A stretch of DNA of 64,000 nt from Aureimonas sp. Leaf324 (GTDB lineage: Bacteria > Pseudomonadota > Alphaproteobacteria > Rhizobiales > Rhizobiaceae), in contig NZ_LMOH01000023.1 of NCBI RefSeq assembly GCF_001423245.1, positions 187,645 through 251,644 of the forward strand, written 5' to 3'. The stretch's first letter is position 1, and the number at the start of each line of letters is the position of its first letter. Position numbers and translations under genes: made by a program. A model generated the notes under the pieces. The model was not told where the DNA came from. It ran no database searches and was given only the letters and a program-made list of their open reading frames with translations. This document shows, one piece after another, positions 1-6,991 of this stretch.

Positions 1-546
1 GCGCAGCGGTCGCGACAGGCCGGCGAGCACCTCGGCCTCGTGGCCCTCGACGTCGATCTTGCAGAAGGCGGGCTCGCCATACTCCTCGATCAGATGGTCG
101 AGCGTCGTCACCTCGACCGAGACGCGGCCATCCCACTCGACATGCCGAAACCCGTCGTCCGTCGCCACGCGGTCGCGCCAGTCGTTGGAGAGCGTCGAAA
201 CCGTCGGGTGATAGGCCGAGACCGCGAGCGTCGCATGGCCCGGCTCGCGGCCGACCGCGCGGCGGTCGAGCCGGATCCGCGCCGGGTCGAGGCGGCGGGC
301 GAGATAGTCGCCGAACAGGGGCTGCGGCTCGAAGGCGACGACCTGCGCCCCGGCGCGCGCCAGCGCGAGGGCGCGGCTGCCGACATGGGCGCCGATGTCG
401 AAGGCGAGGTCGCCCGGACGGATCAGCGCGGACAGGAACCGGTCGATCCCGCGCCGACGCCAGGGCTGGCCGTTGTAGACGACGATCGAGCGCCACAGGC
501 CGAGGGTCGCGGGATCGACGCCCGCCCGCTGGAGAAGCCGCCTCAT
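1..546 (-). CDS. FkbM family methyltransferase (3' end cut by window edge)
   Basis: The frame runs from an ATG at 546 to the left edge with no stop, so at least 182 residues are present and the C-terminus is missing. A SAM-binding motif I (FDIGAHVG) near residue 50 is followed by an acidic strand end (AFEPQP), and near residue 170 comes the FkbM hallmark KIDVEGHEAEVL. FkbM proteins are SAM-dependent O-methyltransferases, often acting on sugars or polyketides. The start codon overlaps the stop of the upstream CDP-alcohol phosphatidyltransferase by four bases (ATGA), so the two are translationally coupled. The context suggests methylation of an envelope-linked or glycosylated product; the substrate cannot be read from the sequence. 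Confidence 0.85.
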   Translation of the reverse strand, partial: MRRLLQRAGVDPATLGLWRSIVVYNGQPWRRRGIDRFLSALIRPGDLAFDIGAHVGSRALALARAGAQVVAFEPQPLFGDYLARRLDPARIRLDRRAVGREPGHATLAVSAYHPTVSTLSNDWRDRVATDDGFRHVEWDGRVSVEVTTLDHLIEEYGEPAFCKIDVEGHEAEVLAGLSRPLR

Positions 547-1328
547 GCCGGGCGGCTCAGGAGCGCGCGGATGTCGATCGCGAACGACCAGGTGAGAAGG
601 CCGAGCGCCAGAACCGCCAATGCGTCCGAAACGGGCGACGACACGGGCGGTAGAAGGGCGACGCAGAGGAGCCCGATCTGGAGAACGCAGACGGTCTTGC
701 GCCGCATCGAAGGAGCCAGCGGCCGGGCGAGCCTCGGGTCGAGAGCCGCCCATCCGAGAAACGCGTACCGCATCAGCCCGATCGCCAGCACGTAAACACC
801 CGCCTTGTCGCAGGCGAGCGCCAGAACGCACAGGATCAGGATCAGAAAGGCGTCGACCTCCATGTCGAACCGTTCGCCGAACGGCGAGGCGAGCCCGGAC
901 CGGCGCGCCAGGAACCCGTCGATGCCGTCGAGCGCCAGCGCGAAGAGCGCCGACCCGACGAGCAGCCACTGCAGGGCGCTGTCGGTCGCGGTCAACCGCC
1001 CGTATTCCCAGGCGCAGGCGCCGATCACGGCCGCCATGCCGCCGCGAGCCGTGGTCACGATGTTGGCGGGACCGAAGCGGGCGTGCCGATGGTCGTCGAG
1101 GCGCCAGACCACGAAACCGGCCGTCGGCAGGAACAGCGCCAGCGACAGCGGCAGCGTCTGCCAGCCGAGCCCCGCATGCGAGACGAGAAGGCTGGCGGCG
1201 ACGGTCAGGAGAAGCGCGGTCGCGGCGAGCGTCGTGCAGGCGCCCGGCAGGCTCGGCACGTCGGCGCGTGTCGCAGCGGGAAAGCGCGCTCCGGCCCGTG
1301 CCGGAAGATGGATCGGGTCGAAGCGCAT
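543..1328 (-). CDS. CDP-alcohol phosphatidyltransferase family membrane protein
   Basis: A 261-residue membrane protein that should join a CDP-linked donor (for example CDP-diacylglycerol) to an alcohol acceptor. The full family motif D-x2-DG-x2-AR-x8-G-x3-D-x3-D is present: D134, D137, G138, A141, R142, G151, D155 and D159. Several hydrophobic segments flank it (about 33-75, 95-135, 160-185, 205-250). The N-terminal 30 residues are basic and cytoplasmic-looking. It lies 5 bp after the ribA-like gene and overlaps the FkbM gene, so the three form one minus-strand operon. It is longer and more divergent than PgsA or PssA, so the acceptor is unknown; a pterin- or glycan-containing lipid is only an inference from the neighbours. 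Confidence 0.85.
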   Translation of the reverse strand: MRFDPIHLPARAGARFPAATRADVPSLPGACTTLAATALLLTVAASLLVSHAGLGWQTLPLSLALFLPTAGFVVWRLDDHRHARFGPANIVTTARGGMAAVIGACAWEYGRLTATDSALQWLLVGSALFALALDGIDGFLARRSGLASPFGERFDMEVDAFLILILCVLALACDKAGVYVLAIGLMRYAFLGWAALDPRLARPLAPSMRRKTVCVLQIGLLCVALLPPVSSPVSDALAVLALGLLTWSFAIDIRALLSRPA

Positions 1329-1333
1329 GCGTT

Positions 1334-2455
1334 TCAGCCGAGCTTGGCCGCGATCGCCGGCCAGTCGAGAAGGTGGCCGGCGCGCCGCGCCTTGGTGACG
1401 AGGTAGCCCTGGTTCTCGGCGGTCACGGTGCCGAGGACGGCCGTGCGGGCCTGAACCTCGATGCCGGCCGACTGGAGAGCGGCGATCTTGGTCGGGTTGT
1501 TGGTCATCAGCTCGACCGAGCCGATGCCGAGCGAGCGAAGCATCGCGACGGCCGCGCCGTAGCGACGCCCGTCCGGCTCGAAGCCGATCTGCGCATCGGC
1601 GTCGATCGTGTCAAAACCCTCGTGCTGCAGGCCGTAGGCGCGCATCTTGGCGGCAAGCCCCGTGCCGCGGCCCTCCTGATCGAGGTAGAGGAGAACGCCG
1701 CCGCCGCGCTGTGCGATCAGCTGCAACCCATTGCGGAGCTGGTCGCCACAGTCGCACTTCAGGGAACCGAAGAGGTCGCCCGTGATGCAGGACGAGTGAA
1801 TGCGTACGGGCACCGGCCGCGACAGGTCCGGCTCGCCCACCATGATGGCGAGCTGGTCGCGCTGCGCGAGGCCGCCGCGAAACACCACGAAGCGGCAGTC
1901 CGAGATGTCGCGCAGCGGAACCGCCGTGCGGACGATCTCCGTGAAGCGGGTTTCCTCGACGAGGGCCGCGCGCACCTCGGCGTCCGCGACCGACAGGCAG
2001 CGCCCACCGATCCGGTCGTCGGCGCGCGCCGGCCGCACCAGGAAGGCCGGAAGCAACAGCGCGAGCCGCGCGAGATCGTTGAGGCAGGCGAGTTCGGACG
2101 CCGGCCGCCAGTCGCCGGGAAAACGGGTCTCCGCCCCGAAGGCGATCCGCGACAGTTCGGAGAGATCGGCGGTGCCGGTCGTCAGGCAGACGGGGCCGAT
2201 CGTGGAAATCCCGAGCGCCCGCGCACGATGCGCGCTGAGGTAGAGGCCGACCTCGTCCGGCGCGTCGCCGAAGAAGCGGTCGACGTCGCCGGTGGCGGCC
2301 GCGTCGATCGACAGCACGGCATGTTCGGCCGCGCCGGAGTGCAAGAGAATCGAGCGCCCGTAGCGAAGCTCTGAAACCGCACGTTCCGTGTTCACCTTGG
2401 CGAACTCCGAGTCGGTTTCATCCCGAAAGAGGATGTCGGAACTGCCCTCGCTCAT
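1334..2455 (-). CDS. ribA: GTP cyclohydrolase II (RibA-like) with degenerate N-terminal domain
   Basis: A 373-residue protein whose C-terminal half (about 190-373) is GTP cyclohydrolase II: zinc cysteines C223, C234 and C236 in the RIHSSCITGD...SLKCDCGDQL block, the EGRGTGL loop at 261-267 and AYGLQ at 273. These enzymes open GTP to a diaminopyrimidine, the first step to riboflavin. The first 170 residues resemble a worn-down RibB domain but lack its acidic DDEDRE-type active site. The gene is first in a minus operon with the phosphatidyltransferase and FkbM genes and is divergent from dehydrogenase and PTPS genes. This context suggests a dedicated pathway rather than housekeeping riboflavin synthesis, but it could simply be a riboflavin paralogue. 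Confidence 0.88.
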   Translation of the reverse strand: MSEGSSDILFRDETDSEFAKVNTERAVSELRYGRSILLHSGAAEHAVLSIDAAATGDVDRFFGDAPDEVGLYLSAHRARALGISTIGPVCLTTGTADLSELSRIAFGAETRFPGDWRPASELACLNDLARLALLLPAFLVRPARADDRIGGRCLSVADAEVRAALVEETRFTEIVRTAVPLRDISDCRFVVFRGGLAQRDQLAIMVGEPDLSRPVPVRIHSSCITGDLFGSLKCDCGDQLRNGLQLIAQRGGGVLLYLDQEGRGTGLAAKMRAYGLQHEGFDTIDADAQIGFEPDGRRYGAAVAMLRSLGIGSVELMTNNPTKIAALQSAGIEVQARTAVLGTVTAENQGYLVTKARRAGHLLDWPAIAAKLG

Positions 2456-2558
2456 CGCCTGCTACTCCTCGAAACCCACGGAAACGGGCGATCGCGCGGC
2501 GTCGTGGTGCCGGGTCGCTCTCGAATGACAGCTAGACGACGCCTGCTTTTTATCCAGA

Positions 2559-3650
2559 TTGGGTCGCGAACAAGCACGTGATGAGAGCCGTTCGAAGGGT
2601 AACCCCACGACTGGCAACGCAAGCGGAGACACGGTCATCGTTGCCCGGCAAACCATTGAGTCGACAAACATTCGAGGCGAAACGGAACGTCGGGCCCTCT
2701 GGATCGAGGCGCCTGGCCAAGCGGTTCTGCGTCGAAGCGTCGCCCCGGCGCCCGGGCCTGGGGAGTGGCGGGTGCGCAGCCGGTTCGGCGCGATCAGCCG
2801 CGGAACCGAGCGGCTGGTCTTCGAAGGCCGAGTGCCGGAGGAGGAATACGAGCGCATGCGCGCGCCGCTCCAGGAAGGCGCGTTTCCGTTTCCGGTGAAA
2901 TACGGCTACAGCGTCGTCGGCATCGTCGAGGATGGAGACGATGCTCCGGTCGACCGCGTGGTGTTCTGCCTTCACCCCCATCAGGAGCGATTAACGGCAC
3001 CCGCCGCGGCCTTCCGGATGGTGCCGCATGGCGTCCCGCCGGAACGGGCGGTGCTCGCGCCGTTCATGGAGACCGCGCTCAACATCGTCTGGGACGCCGC
3101 CGTCGCGCCGGGCGACCGGGTCGCCGTGGTCGGGGCCGGCCTGATCGGGTGCCTCGTCGCCTACCTCTCGGCGCGCATTCCGGGCGTCGAGGTGACGCTG
3201 GCCGATCCGAACGCCGCCCGCCGCCGGGCGCTCGCGGGCTGGGGCTGCGATCTCGTCCCGCCGGGTGAGCTTCCGGGGGACCGGGACGTCGTCGTCCACG
3301 CATCCGGGCGGCCGGAGGGCCTGTCGGCGGCGCTCGAGTGCGCGGGCCTTGAGGCGCGGGTCGTGGAAGCCAGCTGGTTCGGGCGACAAGACGTCGCGGT
3401 CCCGCTCGGCGGTGCGTTCCATTCCCGGCGGCTGCGCCTCGTATCCTCGCAGGTCGGACGCGTTCCGGCGGAGCGCCAGGCCCGCTGGACCACCGGGCGA
3501 CGTCTCGACACGGCGCTACGCCTCCTCGCCGATCCGCTTCTCGATCGCATGTTCTCCGGGGAAAGCGCCTTCGGGCACCTCGACCGCGACTACGCCGCCA
3601 TCCTGTCCGATCCCGATACGCTCTGCCACCGCATCCGCTACGCGCCGTAA
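2559..3650 (+). CDS. MDR-superfamily dehydrogenase (zinc-ADH-like)
   Basis: Medium-chain dehydrogenase/reductase with a nucleotide-binding Rossmann motif (VGAGLIG) in the middle and the usual GroES-like N-terminal half. The segment where zinc alcohol dehydrogenases carry the catalytic Cys (CGTD) reads AISRGTERL, so the catalytic zinc ligand is missing. No ATG or GTG lies in frame before the conserved part; the only conventional start is TTG at 2559, and the first 45 residues do not look like family sequence, so the true start is uncertain. It is head-to-head with the ribA-like gene and 46 bp before the PTPS homologue. It probably oxidises or reduces a pathway intermediate, perhaps a pterin side chain. 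Confidence 0.8.
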   Translation: MGREQARDESRSKGNPTTGNASGDTVIVARQTIESTNIRGETERRALWIEAPGQAVLRRSVAPAPGPGEWRVRSRFGAISRGTERLVFEGRVPEEEYERMRAPLQEGAFPFPVKYGYSVVGIVEDGDDAPVDRVVFCLHPHQERLTAPAAAFRMVPHGVPPERAVLAPFMETALNIVWDAAVAPGDRVAVVGAGLIGCLVAYLSARIPGVEVTLADPNAARRRALAGWGCDLVPPGELPGDRDVVVHASGRPEGLSAALECAGLEARVVEASWFGRQDVAVPLGGAFHSRRLRLVSSQVGRVPAERQARWTTGRRLDTALRLLADPLLDRMFSGESAFGHLDRDYAAILSDPDTLCHRIRYAP

Positions 3651-3696
3651 GGCCGCGCCCGTCCCCTCATCTTCCTCCCCGATCAAAGGCCCGCCG

Positions 3697-4095
3697 ATGT
3701 ACGCCGTCGAAGTCCGTGACCACATCATGATCGCCCACAGCCTGCCGCGCGCCGTTTTCGGCCCGGCGCAGGGCATGCACGGCGCGACCTTCGAGGTGGA
3801 CGCCGCCTTCTTCACGCGCGACGTCGACGCGGACGGCCTCGGCGTCGACATGGGTCTTGCGATCACCGTCCTGAAGGAGGTCCTCGCCCCGCTGAACTAC
3901 CAGAACCTCGACGAACTCGAGGTCTTCCGCGGCCGCGTCACCACCACCGAGGTCCTCGCCCGCCACGTCTTCGACGCGCTCGCCGCGCGCATCCGCGACG
4001 GCGCCTTCGGGCCGGGCAGCGGGCGCATCGAGCGCATCCGCGTGACGCTGCACGAGAGCCACGTGGCGCGCGCCTGGTACGAGGGAGACCTTTGA
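3697..4095 (+). CDS. 6-pyruvoyltetrahydropterin synthase / QueD homologue with altered active site
   Basis: A 132-residue protein of the tunnelling-fold PTPS/QueD family, recognisable by HSL at 14-16, the HG motif at 28-29 followed by a beta strand, and a C-terminal LHESHVARAWYEG block holding the conserved substrate-anchoring Glu. Canonical members bind zinc with three His and use a Cys four residues before the HGH motif. Here the HGH is HGA (A30 instead of the third His) and the Cys position is A24. The fold is therefore kept while catalytic residues are changed. Its stop overlaps the TTG start of the glycosyltransferase (TTGA), so expression is coupled. It may make a different pterin product or act as a pterin-binding protein. 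Confidence 0.85.
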   Translation: MYAVEVRDHIMIAHSLPRAVFGPAQGMHGATFEVDAAFFTRDVDADGLGVDMGLAITVLKEVLAPLNYQNLDELEVFRGRVTTTEVLARHVFDALAARIRDGAFGPGSGRIERIRVTLHESHVARAWYEGDL

Positions 4096-5150
4096 GCGCG
4101 AGCCCGTCGCGCCATCTCGTCTTCGCGATTCCGGGCGACCTCGACGCGCCGAGCGGCGGCTACGGCTACGACCGGCGCATGATCGCGGAGCTGCGGGCGC
4201 TCGGCTGGCAGGTCGACGTCATGCCGCTCCCGGCCTCGTTTCCGATGCCGGGGCACGCGGACATGGCGGCGGCCGCCGCAGCCTTCGCAGCCCTGCCGGA
4301 CGACGCGCTTGTCATGGTCGACGGGCTCGCCTTCGGCGCGCTTCCCGATGTCGCGCGACGCGAGGGACGCCGGCTGCGTCTTGCGGCCCTCGTCCACCAT
4401 CCCCTCGCGCTGGAGGACGTCCTGTCTCCCCCGGTCGCCGAAGCCCTGCGATCGAGCGAACGCGAGGCGCTCGCGCATGCCCGCGCCGTCGTCGCGACCA
4501 GCCGGACCACGGCGCGGCTTCTGTCGATCGGGTTCGGTGTCGGCACCCACGTGGCCGTCGCCCCGCCCGGCACCGAACAGCCGACGTCGCCGCCTTCCCG
4601 CTCGCCGTCGCGCATGCCGACGATCCTGTCGGTGGGCTCGCTGATCCCACGCAAGGACCATGCGCTTCTCGTCGAGGCGCTGGCCGGGCTGACGGAGCTT
4701 CCCTGGCGCTGCCGCATCGTGGGGAGCGAGACCGCCGATCCCGCGACCGCGCGCGCACTGAAGACGCAAATCGCCGACGCCGGACTGGAGCGGCGGATCA
4801 CAGTTGTCGGCCCCGTCCGGGATGTCGGGGCGGAGTATCGCGCCGCCGACATCTTCGCCCTGCCCTCGCGCTTCGAGGGCTACGGCATGGCGTTCGCCGA
4901 AGCGATGGCGCACGGGCTTCCCGTCGTCGGCTGCGATGGCGGCGCGGTGTCGGAGGTGGTTCCGGCCTCGGCGGGCACCATCGTCGAGCCGGGCGACGCG
5001 GCCGGGTTCGCGCGGGCGCTCGGAGCCCTGCTTCGCGATCCCGCCGAACGCCGGCGCATGGCGGAGGGGGCCCGCACAGCCGCCGCCGCGCTGCCGACCT
5101 GGGGCGCATCCGCCCAGATCCTCTCCGACGCTCTGGAGGCCGTACGATGA
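4092..5150 (+). CDS. Glycosyltransferase family 4 protein
   Basis: A 352-residue GT-B glycosyltransferase. The N-terminal acceptor domain contains a Gly-rich loop (SGGYGYDRR at 20-28), and the C-terminal donor domain has VGSLIPRKDH and the E-x7-E signature in SRFEGYGMAFAEAM, typical of retaining GT4 enzymes that use nucleotide sugars. The start is TTG at 4092, overlapping the stop of the PTPS homologue; its own stop overlaps the methyltransferase start at 5147. Three tightly coupled genes (PTPS, GT4, methyltransferase) suggest sequential modification of one small molecule, for example glycosylation of a pterin, but the acceptor is inferred from context only. Confidence 0.88.
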   Translation: MSASPSRHLVFAIPGDLDAPSGGYGYDRRMIAELRALGWQVDVMPLPASFPMPGHADMAAAAAAFAALPDDALVMVDGLAFGALPDVARREGRRLRLAALVHHPLALEDVLSPPVAEALRSSEREALAHARAVVATSRTTARLLSIGFGVGTHVAVAPPGTEQPTSPPSRSPSRMPTILSVGSLIPRKDHALLVEALAGLTELPWRCRIVGSETADPATARALKTQIADAGLERRITVVGPVRDVGAEYRAADIFALPSRFEGYGMAFAEAMAHGLPVVGCDGGAVSEVVPASAGTIVEPGDAAGFARALGALLRDPAERRRMAEGARTAAAALPTWGASAQILSDALEAVR

Positions 5151-5929
5151 GCGGTTTCGATACGACTTGGCTGGACTTCCGCGAGCCCGCCGACCACGCC
5201 GCGCGCGACCCCGCCTTACTCGAGGCGGCACGCCAGTTCCTGCGTGCCGGCGGGCCTTCGCCGCTCGCCGTCGATCTCGGCTCGGGCACCGGCTCGACGC
5301 TGCGCGCCTTCGGGCCGGAGGGTCCGACGCGCTGGCGCCTCGTCGACCACGATCCGCGGCTTCTGGAAGCCGCCGTCTCGCGTCTCGGCGGGTTCGCGCA
5401 TGTCGAGCGGATGGAGGCCGACCTCGGCCATCTCGACCCGGTCGTGGTGGCGGATGCGCGCCTCGTCACGGCCTCGGCACTCTTCGATCTCGCCTCGCAG
5501 GACCTCGTGGAGCGCGTCGCCGATCTCCTGACGGAACGCGGGATCGGCCTCTACGCGGCTTTGAACTACGACGGCGTGAACCGCTGGGAGCCGCCGGTCG
5601 ACGGCGACGACGCGATGCTGGCGGCCTTCAACGCACACCAGACGACCGACAAGGGTCTGGGGCCGGCGCTCGGGCCGCAGGCCGCCGAGGCGCTGCGCGC
5701 CGCCTTCGAGCGACGCGGCTACGAGGTTCGCCTCGCGCCGAGTCCCTGGCGGCTCGATGACGGTCAGCGTGCGCTGGAGGCGGCGCTTCGGGAGGGCTTC
5801 GTGGCGGCCGTCCGGGAGACCGGACGCGTCGAGGCGCGACGGATCGACGCCTGGCAGGCGGCGCGCAGCGCCCATCCCGCCCACTGCCATGTCGGGCACT
5901 CAGACGTCCTTGCCCTGCCGAAGACCTGA
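5147..5929 (+). CDS. Class I SAM-dependent methyltransferase
   Basis: A 260-residue protein with a clear SAM motif I (VDLGSGTGST) near residue 43, an acidic loop (LVDHDPRLLEAA) and a motif II/III region (ADARLVTASALFDL). It should transfer a methyl group from S-adenosylmethionine to a small molecule. The ATG at 5147 overlaps the preceding glycosyltransferase stop (ATGA). The gene ends 12 bp before the convergent flippase-like membrane protein. No motif identifies the substrate; the coupling to GT4 and PTPS genes suggests it finishes the same product. Confidence 0.85.
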   Translation: MSGFDTTWLDFREPADHAARDPALLEAARQFLRAGGPSPLAVDLGSGTGSTLRAFGPEGPTRWRLVDHDPRLLEAAVSRLGGFAHVERMEADLGHLDPVVVADARLVTASALFDLASQDLVERVADLLTERGIGLYAALNYDGVNRWEPPVDGDDAMLAAFNAHQTTDKGLGPALGPQAAEALRAAFERRGYEVRLAPSPWRLDDGQRALEAALREGFVAAVRETGRVEARRIDAWQAARSAHPAHCHVGHSDVLALPKT

Positions 5930-5941
5930 CGGCCGCCTGCG

Positions 5942-6991
5942 TCAGGCGGCGGCGCGCCTGCGCCCGCCGATGGCGTGGCGCGCGAGAAGCAGCAGTCCCG
6001 GCAGCGCCCCCACCAGCGAGGCGATGCCGTAGATCACGCTGGCGGCAAAGGCCCCGCCGGCTGTGATGCCGGCGATCGGCAGGATCGCGGCGGCGGCGGC
6101 CTCGCGCAGTCCCCACCCGCCGACCGAGACGGGCAGGAGCATCGAAAGGAGCACGAGCGGGACGAGGAGCAGCGTGCCGGCGAGCCCGAGCGGCGCACCG
6201 ACGGCGCTTGCGGCGAGCGCGAAGGTCGCGAGATAGGAGAGGACCACGGCCAGCGACAAGGCGCCCTGGATGGCCCAGGCCCTGCGCCGGACGAAGACCT
6301 CGGCGAGCAGCGGCCCGAACGCGCGGCGAAACCGCGCCGCCCGGTCTCCGAGGAGGCGCAGCACCACCCAGCCGACCACGACGAGACCGGCGACGGCCGC
6401 GAGGAGAACCAGAAGTCCCGCGCCCCCCGGCGGGGTGACCCCGAAGACGAAGGGCGCCGCGAGAAGGCCGATGCCGGCGGCGGTGAAGAGCACGAGCTGC
6501 CCCGACAGGCGATCGAGCACCACCGCCTGCCCCGCACGGCCGGTCCAGCGATCGCCCTCGCCCTCGCGCGCCGCGCGCACCACTCGCACCGCGTCCCCGG
6601 CGACGCCGCCGGGCAGGACCTGGTTCAGGAGGCTCGCCAGATAATATTCACCGATCGCCCGGCGCGCCGGAAGCTGCTGGCCGAGGCGTCGGGAAGTGAA
6701 GCGCCAACGCAGCGCCGACAGGACGATCTGCGGCTGGACCGAAAGCACCGCGAGCGCGAAGACGAGGGGATCGGCCTGGCCGAGCCGATCGAGCACCTGC
6801 CCCCGGTCGAGCATCGACACGACCGCGATCAGGATGGCGACGCCCGGCACGAGCGGCAGGATCGTGCGGCACCAGGCGGGCATCGCGGACAGGAGCTGGA
6901 ACTGACGCACGCGCACTCCGGGCAGGCCCATGGCCGGCGGGATCGGAGGCATGGGAGGGATCGGTCGATATGTAGCGGGCATCGCCGGCAA
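5942..6991 (-). CDS. Lysylphosphatidylglycerol synthase TM-domain / flippase-like membrane protein
   Basis: A polytopic membrane protein with about seven to eight hydrophobic segments and the C-terminal SVGGWGLREAAA motif typical of the UPF0104/LPG-synthase transmembrane family. The cytosolic aminoacyl-transferase domain of MprF is absent, so this is the stand-alone membrane half, often proposed to flip or export lipids and found beside glycosyltransferases. The first 20 residues are Met/Pro-rich and not family-like; an ATG at 6931 giving about 329 residues is a likely alternative start. It is convergent with the PTPS-GT4-methyltransferase operon and would be a reasonable transporter for its lipid or glycolipid product (inference). 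Confidence 0.82.
   Translation of the reverse strand: MPAMPATYRPIPPMPPIPPAMGLPGVRVRQFQLLSAMPAWCRTILPLVPGVAILIAVVSMLDRGQVLDRLGQADPLVFALAVLSVQPQIVLSALRWRFTSRRLGQQLPARRAIGEYYLASLLNQVLPGGVAGDAVRVVRAAREGEGDRWTGRAGQAVVLDRLSGQLVLFTAAGIGLLAAPFVFGVTPPGGAGLLVLLAAVAGLVVVGWVVLRLLGDRAARFRRAFGPLLAEVFVRRRAWAIQGALSLAVVLSYLATFALAASAVGAPLGLAGTLLLVPLVLLSMLLPVSVGGWGLREAAAAAILPIAGITAGGAFAASVIYGIASLVGALPGLLLLARHAIGGRRRAAA

Follow-up and report, generated by a model that had tools for sequence, protein, structure and literature searches.

The beginning of a 64,000-nucleotide stretch of Aureimonas sp. Leaf324 (NCBI RefSeq assembly GCF_001423245.1, contig NZ_LMOH01000023.1, positions 187,645 to 251,644 of the forward strand), referred to here as the window, carries most of a set of ten genes that spans about positions -2631 to 6991; coordinates are window positions, and negative values lie beyond the window start on the same contig. 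It appears about evenly balanced whether this set is a conserved unit for a pterin-type compound that would be glycosylated, methylated, and delivered to the cell envelope. The gene arrangement is not due to chance. In a congeneric genome (locus L064), all eight genes reported by an earlier sequence-only reading of the window are present in identical order and orientation, with 58-84% protein identity. The core of the set, namely an MDR-superfamily dehydrogenase, a PTPS-IV homologue, a GT4 glycosyltransferase, a class I S-adenosylmethionine-dependent methyltransferase, and a stand-alone RibD_C reductase, is met again in Alphaproteobacteria, in Pseudomonadota of other classes, and in Actinomycetota. 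The sequence-only reading had proposed looking for its eight families together in relatives; that search finds the families kept together in the order, in the phylum, and in a second phylum. Its interpretation passes this check and is partly supported overall.

On the plus strand, the MDR dehydrogenase (about 2559-3650; start codon uncertain, homology from near 2645-2695) is followed by the PTPS-IV homologue (3697-4095), the GT4 glycosyltransferase (4092-5150), and the methyltransferase (5147-5929), and these four are faced by a minus-strand gene for a flippase-like membrane protein (PF03706, LPG_synthase_TM; 5942-6991, start codon uncertain). The other minus-strand genes are transcribed in the order RibA (1334-2455), with a C-terminal GTP cyclohydrolase II domain and an N-terminal RibB-like fold; CDP-alcohol phosphatidyltransferase (PF01066; 543-1328); an FkbM-family methyltransferase of 258 amino acids (PF05050; 1-546, running on to about -230); a membrane protein of Pfam family PF00884 (-1873 to -128 by the longest frame); and the RibD_C reductase (about -2631 to -1870), which was recognised by profile match and reading and whose ATG overlaps the stop of the PF00884 gene. 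All eight families of the sequence-only reading lie where it had placed them, the overlapping starts it described are real (4-base overlaps at PTPS/GT4, GT4/methyltransferase, and phosphatidyltransferase/FkbM), and RibA and MDR diverge from one short intergenic stretch; its set was genuine but incomplete, the PF00884 and RibD_C genes just outside the window having been missed. The motif D-x2-DG-x2-AR-x8-G-x3-D-x3-D, which we take to be that of the CDP-alcohol phosphatidyltransferases, is readable in the window protein. The nearest NCBIfam model to the MDR protein, BchC, scores far below its cut-off (42 bits vs 291).

Among 297 genomes of the order, PTPS is present in 89 (E <= 1e-25), the special RibD_C in 68 (E <= 1e-45), and the NF006456-type RibA in 54 (E <= 1e-60). 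PTPS and RibD_C occur together in 67 genomes, and the lone genome with RibD_C and no PTPS is 56% complete. These 67 pairs lie within 10 kb in 44 cases, farther apart on one contig in 9, and on different contigs in 14, some of which may be assembly breaks. Since many pairs are not close, linkage alone does not explain the co-occurrence. NF006456-type RibA is found in 46 of the 89 genomes with PTPS vs 8 of the 208 without it. When 20 loci around NF006456-type RibA were read, MDR, PTPS, GT4, and the methyltransferase were close by in 11 and all but the methyltransferase in L080; the remaining eight had no nearby MDR or PTPS, two of them (L069 and L074) holding RibD_C. The distance matrices of five core families correlate over 26 loci (r 0.65-0.85).

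The surroundings of PTPS were read in 81 loci, comprising the best 80 of 582 found by PTPS alone and the window's own. The family profiles were built from these same loci, and one family was counted per frame, which undercounts fused genes and was corrected for the phylum and plasmid loci. Within 8 kb of PTPS, the core is the most frequent (MDR 77, methyltransferase 75, GT4 70, RibD_C 54), followed by cytochrome b561 (34), RibA (33), FkbM (32), CDP-alcohol phosphatidyltransferase (31), MdoH-type glucosyltransferase (30), the PF00884 protein (27), the PF03706 protein (25), and IMP phosphatase (15). Where the flanks reach at least 7 kb on either side of PTPS (57 loci), the PF00884 (22) and PF03706 (19) genes always accompany the phosphatidyltransferase (26), which meets MdoH (21) only once, vs about 9.6 meetings expected from the marginals; the Fisher tests on these modules treat related loci as independent. 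The two near-exclusive modules, phosphatidyltransferase/PF00884/flippase and MdoH glucosyltransferase, can be read as two ways of performing one envelope step. Envelope genes of the window type are one of two alternative modules and not obligatory partners. Beside MdoH, a 440-codon frame stands in 8 of the 81 loci (L161 6025-7344 and relatives); by eye it seems to carry a signal peptide, and it has zero Pfam or NCBIfam matches. The cytochrome b561 gene (in L168, L161, L172, L237, and others) is often beside RibD_C, but the locus of the window shows none.

In a sample of 349 genomes from the phylum, 22 carry PTPS, and 8 of these belong to other classes. Eleven loci from other orders or classes all hold MDR, PTPS, and the methyltransferase, with GT4 in 10, RibD_C in 9, and the phosphatidyltransferase and PF03706 genes in 8 each; every one of the 8 loci from outside the class carries MDR, PTPS, GT4, methyltransferase, phosphatidyltransferase, and PF03706. 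The set is also found on plasmids: in Pseudomonadota on Agrobacterium tumefaciens pAt and on plasmids of Methylosinus trichosporium OB3b and Thiodictyon, and in Streptomyces on plasmids of S. fungicidicus and S. globisporus, both with those same six families. A 59-kb mobilizable Microbacterium plasmid holds phosphatidyltransferase, MDR, PTPS, GT4, methyltransferase, PF03706, and RibD_C genes in a row; the 24 kb that were read there contain no RibA. On an Arthrobacter plasmid, MDR, PTPS, and GT4 are the only members seen. GT4 and the methyltransferase are fused as one continuous frame in six loci, five outside the class and L209 within the order, which is a direct sign of joint action. The methyltransferase fold resembles general small-molecule methyltransferases (best Z 20.0, rmsd 3.4, 234 residues), with many others within a few Z; therefore, no substrate is inferred from it.

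A lesser possibility, though a real one, is that the core genes, with or without RibA, make a soluble pterin or pyrimidine glycoside serving as pigment, light screen, or signal, and that the envelope genes are neighbours with a lipid or glucan function of their own. The far greater constancy of the core across the 81 loci than of either envelope module agrees with this, as do the pterin glycosides known from cyanobacteria (PMC13259868) and Chlorobium (PMC5683033). What speaks for envelope delivery is that three Actinomycetota plasmids and every one of the 8 loci from outside the Alphaproteobacteria combine the phosphatidyltransferase and PF03706 genes with the core, and that the mutual replacement of the two modules looks like linked function.

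The window PTPS belongs to a tight subfamily with 32 invariant columns in 13 sequences, including FGPAQ, H14, H28-G-A, and E120; its best named match is from Aureimonas jatrophae (85%). It retains His14, His28, and Glu120 (own numbering), the last being the ring-anchoring residue. When aligned to what we take to be the E. coli QueD sequence, neither the Cys nor the third Zn His nor the Asp-His pair is present. FGPAQ, the published signature of PTPS-IV (PMC5445326), is present in 111 of 112 PTPS frames of the mapped loci, the window protein included, whereas HGH occurs in none of the 112 and HGA stands in its place. The description of the protein as an altered PTPS is thus borne out, with the usual catalytic residues gone. 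The label QueD or PTPS-I (motif CxxxHGH; PMC5041015) does not fit these frames, nor does that of PTPS-II in biopterin synthesis (CxxxxxHGH). A pattern scan of viral contigs gave zero relatives of the window PTPS. The closest solved structure is PDB 3D7J (SCO6650 of Streptomyces coelicolor), matched by the PTPS profile at 192.6 bits (E 2.4e-56), vs far weaker matches to other PTPS and QueD chains (E 1e-6 to 2e-4). The protein in that structure is said to be without zinc, catalytic triad, or PTPS activity and to keep the pterin-binding residues; two other Streptomyces plasmids stand in here for the S. coelicolor locus.

Deazapurine synthesis, too, draws on PTPS-family proteins and GTP cyclohydrolases, and on this ground a modified nucleoside or deazapurine natural product might be proposed in place of a pterin. 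Such a product appears improbable, since the PTPS is without the QueD motif and no QueE- or QueC-like protein is found among the neighbour clusters that occur in at least 14 of the 81 loci, smaller clusters being judged by eye. RibE, RibH, and a deaminase are absent from the same clusters, judged in the same way, and a riboflavin operon was rejected on this basis. The PTPS motifs and the frequent neighbours agree with the sequence-only reading that this is not a riboflavin, queuosine, or biopterin operon.

The RibD_C copy of the window genome matches the RibD_C profile and reads as RibD_C with a short N-terminal part. For the protein of L152, Pfam gives PF01872 alone, and TIGR00227 scores 113 bits vs a cut-off of 150. 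Canonical RibD, with a deaminase domain fused to the reductase, was rejected as a label. The RibD_C fold is shared with dihydrofolate reductase, and the enzyme may therefore act on a dihydropterin instead of a ribosyl chain. Since no deaminase accompanies it, the product should keep its 2-amino group, as in a pterin-type compound.

The residues of a GTP cyclohydrolase II are all found in the window RibA, namely three Zn cysteines, QEGR, Tyr105, and Arg128 (E. coli numbering). Its AlphaFold2 model (mean pLDDT 89) aligns with E. coli GTP cyclohydrolase II (2bz0; Z 23.6, rmsd 1.6, 173 residues), and the N-terminal part of the model with RibB (Z 13.7, rmsd 3.4, 149 residues, 15% identity); as modelled, the protein looks like a RibBA with a strongly diverged RibB half. 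Against the NF006456 equivalog it scores 444.9 bits, a near miss of the curated cut-off of 464. All 62 RibA-type sequences of the alignment keep the Zn cysteines, and 58 keep Tyr105; this count excludes the RibBX proteins L211-L220, L230 and L231 with another type of GTP cyclohydrolase, and the partial L232, and L002 and L221-L229 missed the E-value cut-off of the alignment. Ten alignable RibBX-type proteins are without Zn cysteines, nine from PTPS genomes negative for PF00925 and one from a PTPS-less genome.

In RibA of both Streptomyces cluster sets, Met occupies the position of Tyr105 (shown separately for L265) and a creatininase-family gene adjoins. Tyr-to-Met RibA reportedly leaves the formyl intermediate (FAPy) in Streptomyces. 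Judged by its sequence, the neighbour in S. fungicidicus belongs to the creatininase family (the MftE model gives 138.7 bits and the ArfB model 35.8, both under cut-off). Creatininase-family genes are also present in L151 and L254, two loci in which RibA was not observed. In Sinorhizobium meliloti, the creatininase-family protein BrbF has been proven to act as a formamidase on this same RibA intermediate (PMC9478397). Judging by these residues and neighbours, the Met-RibA of Streptomyces probably goes no further than the formyl compound, the reaction being completed by a formamidase of the creatininase family.

From the gene identities, the co-occurrence, the residues lost and retained, the near-exclusive modules, and the GT4-methyltransferase fusions, all of which are observed, we infer which reactions take place and in what sequence, what they make, and where it is delivered, as follows. 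RibA would open GTP to 2,5-diamino-6-ribosylamino-pyrimidinone phosphate (DARPP), or in the Streptomyces variant Met-RibA would yield the formyl compound, to be completed by the creatininase-family formamidase. With no deaminase acting, the 2-amino-4-oxo ring would stay as in pterins, the stand-alone RibD_C would reduce the ribosyl chain or a dihydropterin, and MDR would oxidise a side-chain alcohol to a ketone. PTPS-IV may then bind the ring and promote closure to a (di- or tetra)hydropterin, bypassing GTP cyclohydrolase I. A pterin-type ring is suggested by the missing deaminase, by the absence of RibE and RibH among the frequent neighbours, and by the PTPS fold with its kept Glu. GT4 would add a sugar and the methyltransferase a methyl group. 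Delivery to the envelope would involve, in the window type, the CDP-alcohol phosphatidyltransferase, the PF00884 phosphotransferase-like protein, and the PF03706 flippase-like protein, and in the alternative type the MdoH-type glucosyltransferase; glycosylation, methylation, lipid anchoring, and export are predicted from these gene families. That a pterin or pyrimidine is derived from what GTP cyclohydrolase II makes is favoured further by the RibD_C partner and by the pairing of RibA with creatininase-family genes. RibA is not always recognisable.

Several observations weigh against this pathway. A PF00925 match at E <= 1e-35 is missing from 34 of the 89 PTPS-bearing genomes. The GTP-opening enzyme of S. 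meliloti is still unknown (PMC9478397), a gap that may account for these genomes. Leu stands at Tyr105 in three RibAs beside or near RibD_C (L201 5813-6616, L203 9926-10768, and L178 13571-14536), with no creatininase-family gene in view, and the RibAs of L076, L258, L260, and L262 keep Tyr yet adjoin such a gene, so that the formamidase idea fits less well. RibD_C falls below the threshold in 22 of the 89 PTPS genomes; for the absences of PF00925 and of RibD_C alike, the scoring took at most eight first-look candidates from each genome, so that some matches may have been missed. In all seven RibD_C-negative PTPS loci that were read, none was seen in 20 kb. Canonical RibD has a lysine where the RibD_C family here has an invariant Gln, which favours a changed substrate, perhaps not DARPP. 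Most loci are without one envelope module or the other, and two further Streptomyces plasmids hold PTPS without the set. No special closeness of GT4 to the solved pterin glucosyltransferase 5ZER (UDP-glucose:tetrahydrobiopterin glucosyltransferase) is apparent: it was one of 36 chains matched, with E 4e-5 and many others ahead of it, and was not among the best 60 of 95 matches of the profile search. The Fisher tests of genome co-occurrence treat related genomes as independent. RibA occurs without PTPS in 8 of the 54 RibA genomes of the order and 4 of 16 in the genus.

Such genomes also agree with another explanation, by which RibA is the housekeeping GTP cyclohydrolase II of riboflavin synthesis and its neighbours are unrelated. 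The only other PF00925 protein of the window genome (L002, C27:210168-210602) has a readable RibB half and a RibA half that has lost the Zn cysteines, which leaves room for this role. Yet within the genus RibA is present in all 12 PTPS-bearing genomes, in addition to the 4 with RibA only, and the 5 with neither (G010, G012, G016, G018, and G019) have only a similarly weak PF00925 match while being 99% complete; a riboflavin GTP cyclohydrolase is not evident in them. Other lineages have RibA of other types, located within this cluster or next to RibD_C (L200, L201, L203, L233, and L265). A purely housekeeping RibA is considered unlikely.

A role of PTPS-IV in F420 biosynthesis was stated from unpublished work by Zallot et al. 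in 2016 (PMC5041015), and the cluster might accordingly serve this coenzyme. Searches for CofH and CofD, which rose above the cut-off in three archaeal controls, found both absent in 72 of 79 PTPS-bearing genomes, the window's included, and both present in 7. F420 is rejected for these 72 hosts and is a very remote explanation for the cluster as a whole. Ten of the 89 genomes were left out of the test (G059, G074, G088, G119, G125, G268, G282, G298, G315, and G332), six of which are less than 90% complete.

In the AGeNNT study of 2017, the PTPS-IV sequences of node 62 (561 sequences) share FGPAQ and have PF00925, there labelled 'FolE2', and PF01872 as neighbours; the section on this node names no MDR, GT4, methyltransferase, or envelope modules and infers no pathway (PMC5445326). 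The PTPS-IV signature with these two neighbours is thus already in print. Within the open-licence PMC literature, to which the search was limited, no paper was found on the whole set or its product. New within this literature are the full set with MDR, GT4, methyltransferase, and two near-exclusive envelope modules, the GT4-methyltransferase fusions, the occurrence in two phyla as well as on plasmids, the finding that 67 of 68 genomes with RibD_C also have PTPS, and the rejection of F420 in most of the hosts that were tested. Synthesis of the pterin glycosides of cyanobacteria and Chlorobium is alike in using a glycosyltransferase that acts on a pterin, as GT4 would here. The GT4 of the set is not specially close to that enzyme, and the pterin in those organisms is made by GTP cyclohydrolase I together with an active PTPS. 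The beginning of the riboflavin pathway (RibA and RibD) and BrbF share RibA, RibD_C, and in some lineages a creatininase-family neighbour with the set (PMC9478397). Unlike the riboflavin pathway, the set has RibD_C without a deaminase, no RibE or RibH among its frequent neighbours, and different partners.

The PTPS is carried by three in ten sampled genomes of the order (89 of 297), yet existing annotations of the cluster genes name queuosine, riboflavin, or 'zinc-binding alcohol dehydrogenase' functions. Should the reading of an envelope-delivered pterin be right, many bacteria would carry an undescribed pterin-type compound in their envelope, pterins would be reached by a second route in biology, and PTPS-IV would gain a function. 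A more specific form of this idea, doubtful at present, is an envelope-anchored pterin glycoconjugate in at least two phyla, made by a route from GTP cyclohydrolase II and served by two interchangeable modules, with which cytochrome b561 (34 of 81 loci) might exchange electrons across the membrane as an ascorbate-like redox couple.

On two Streptomyces plasmids, PTPS-IV-like genes are found outside the cluster (L234 12001-12426 and L235 12001-12399), and both loci carry a MEKHLA-domain gene, cupin genes, and an MBL-fold gene. In the window, the cluster is followed by a peptide ABC transporter. Its substrate-binding protein was sought in 20 loci and gave a single weak match (26% identity); since it is not conserved with the set, it is not regarded as part of it. 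Upstream, frames that by eye are C5-cytosine-methylase-like and integrase-like (L003 204-3933, window -9441 to -5712) are perhaps the edge of a mobile element.

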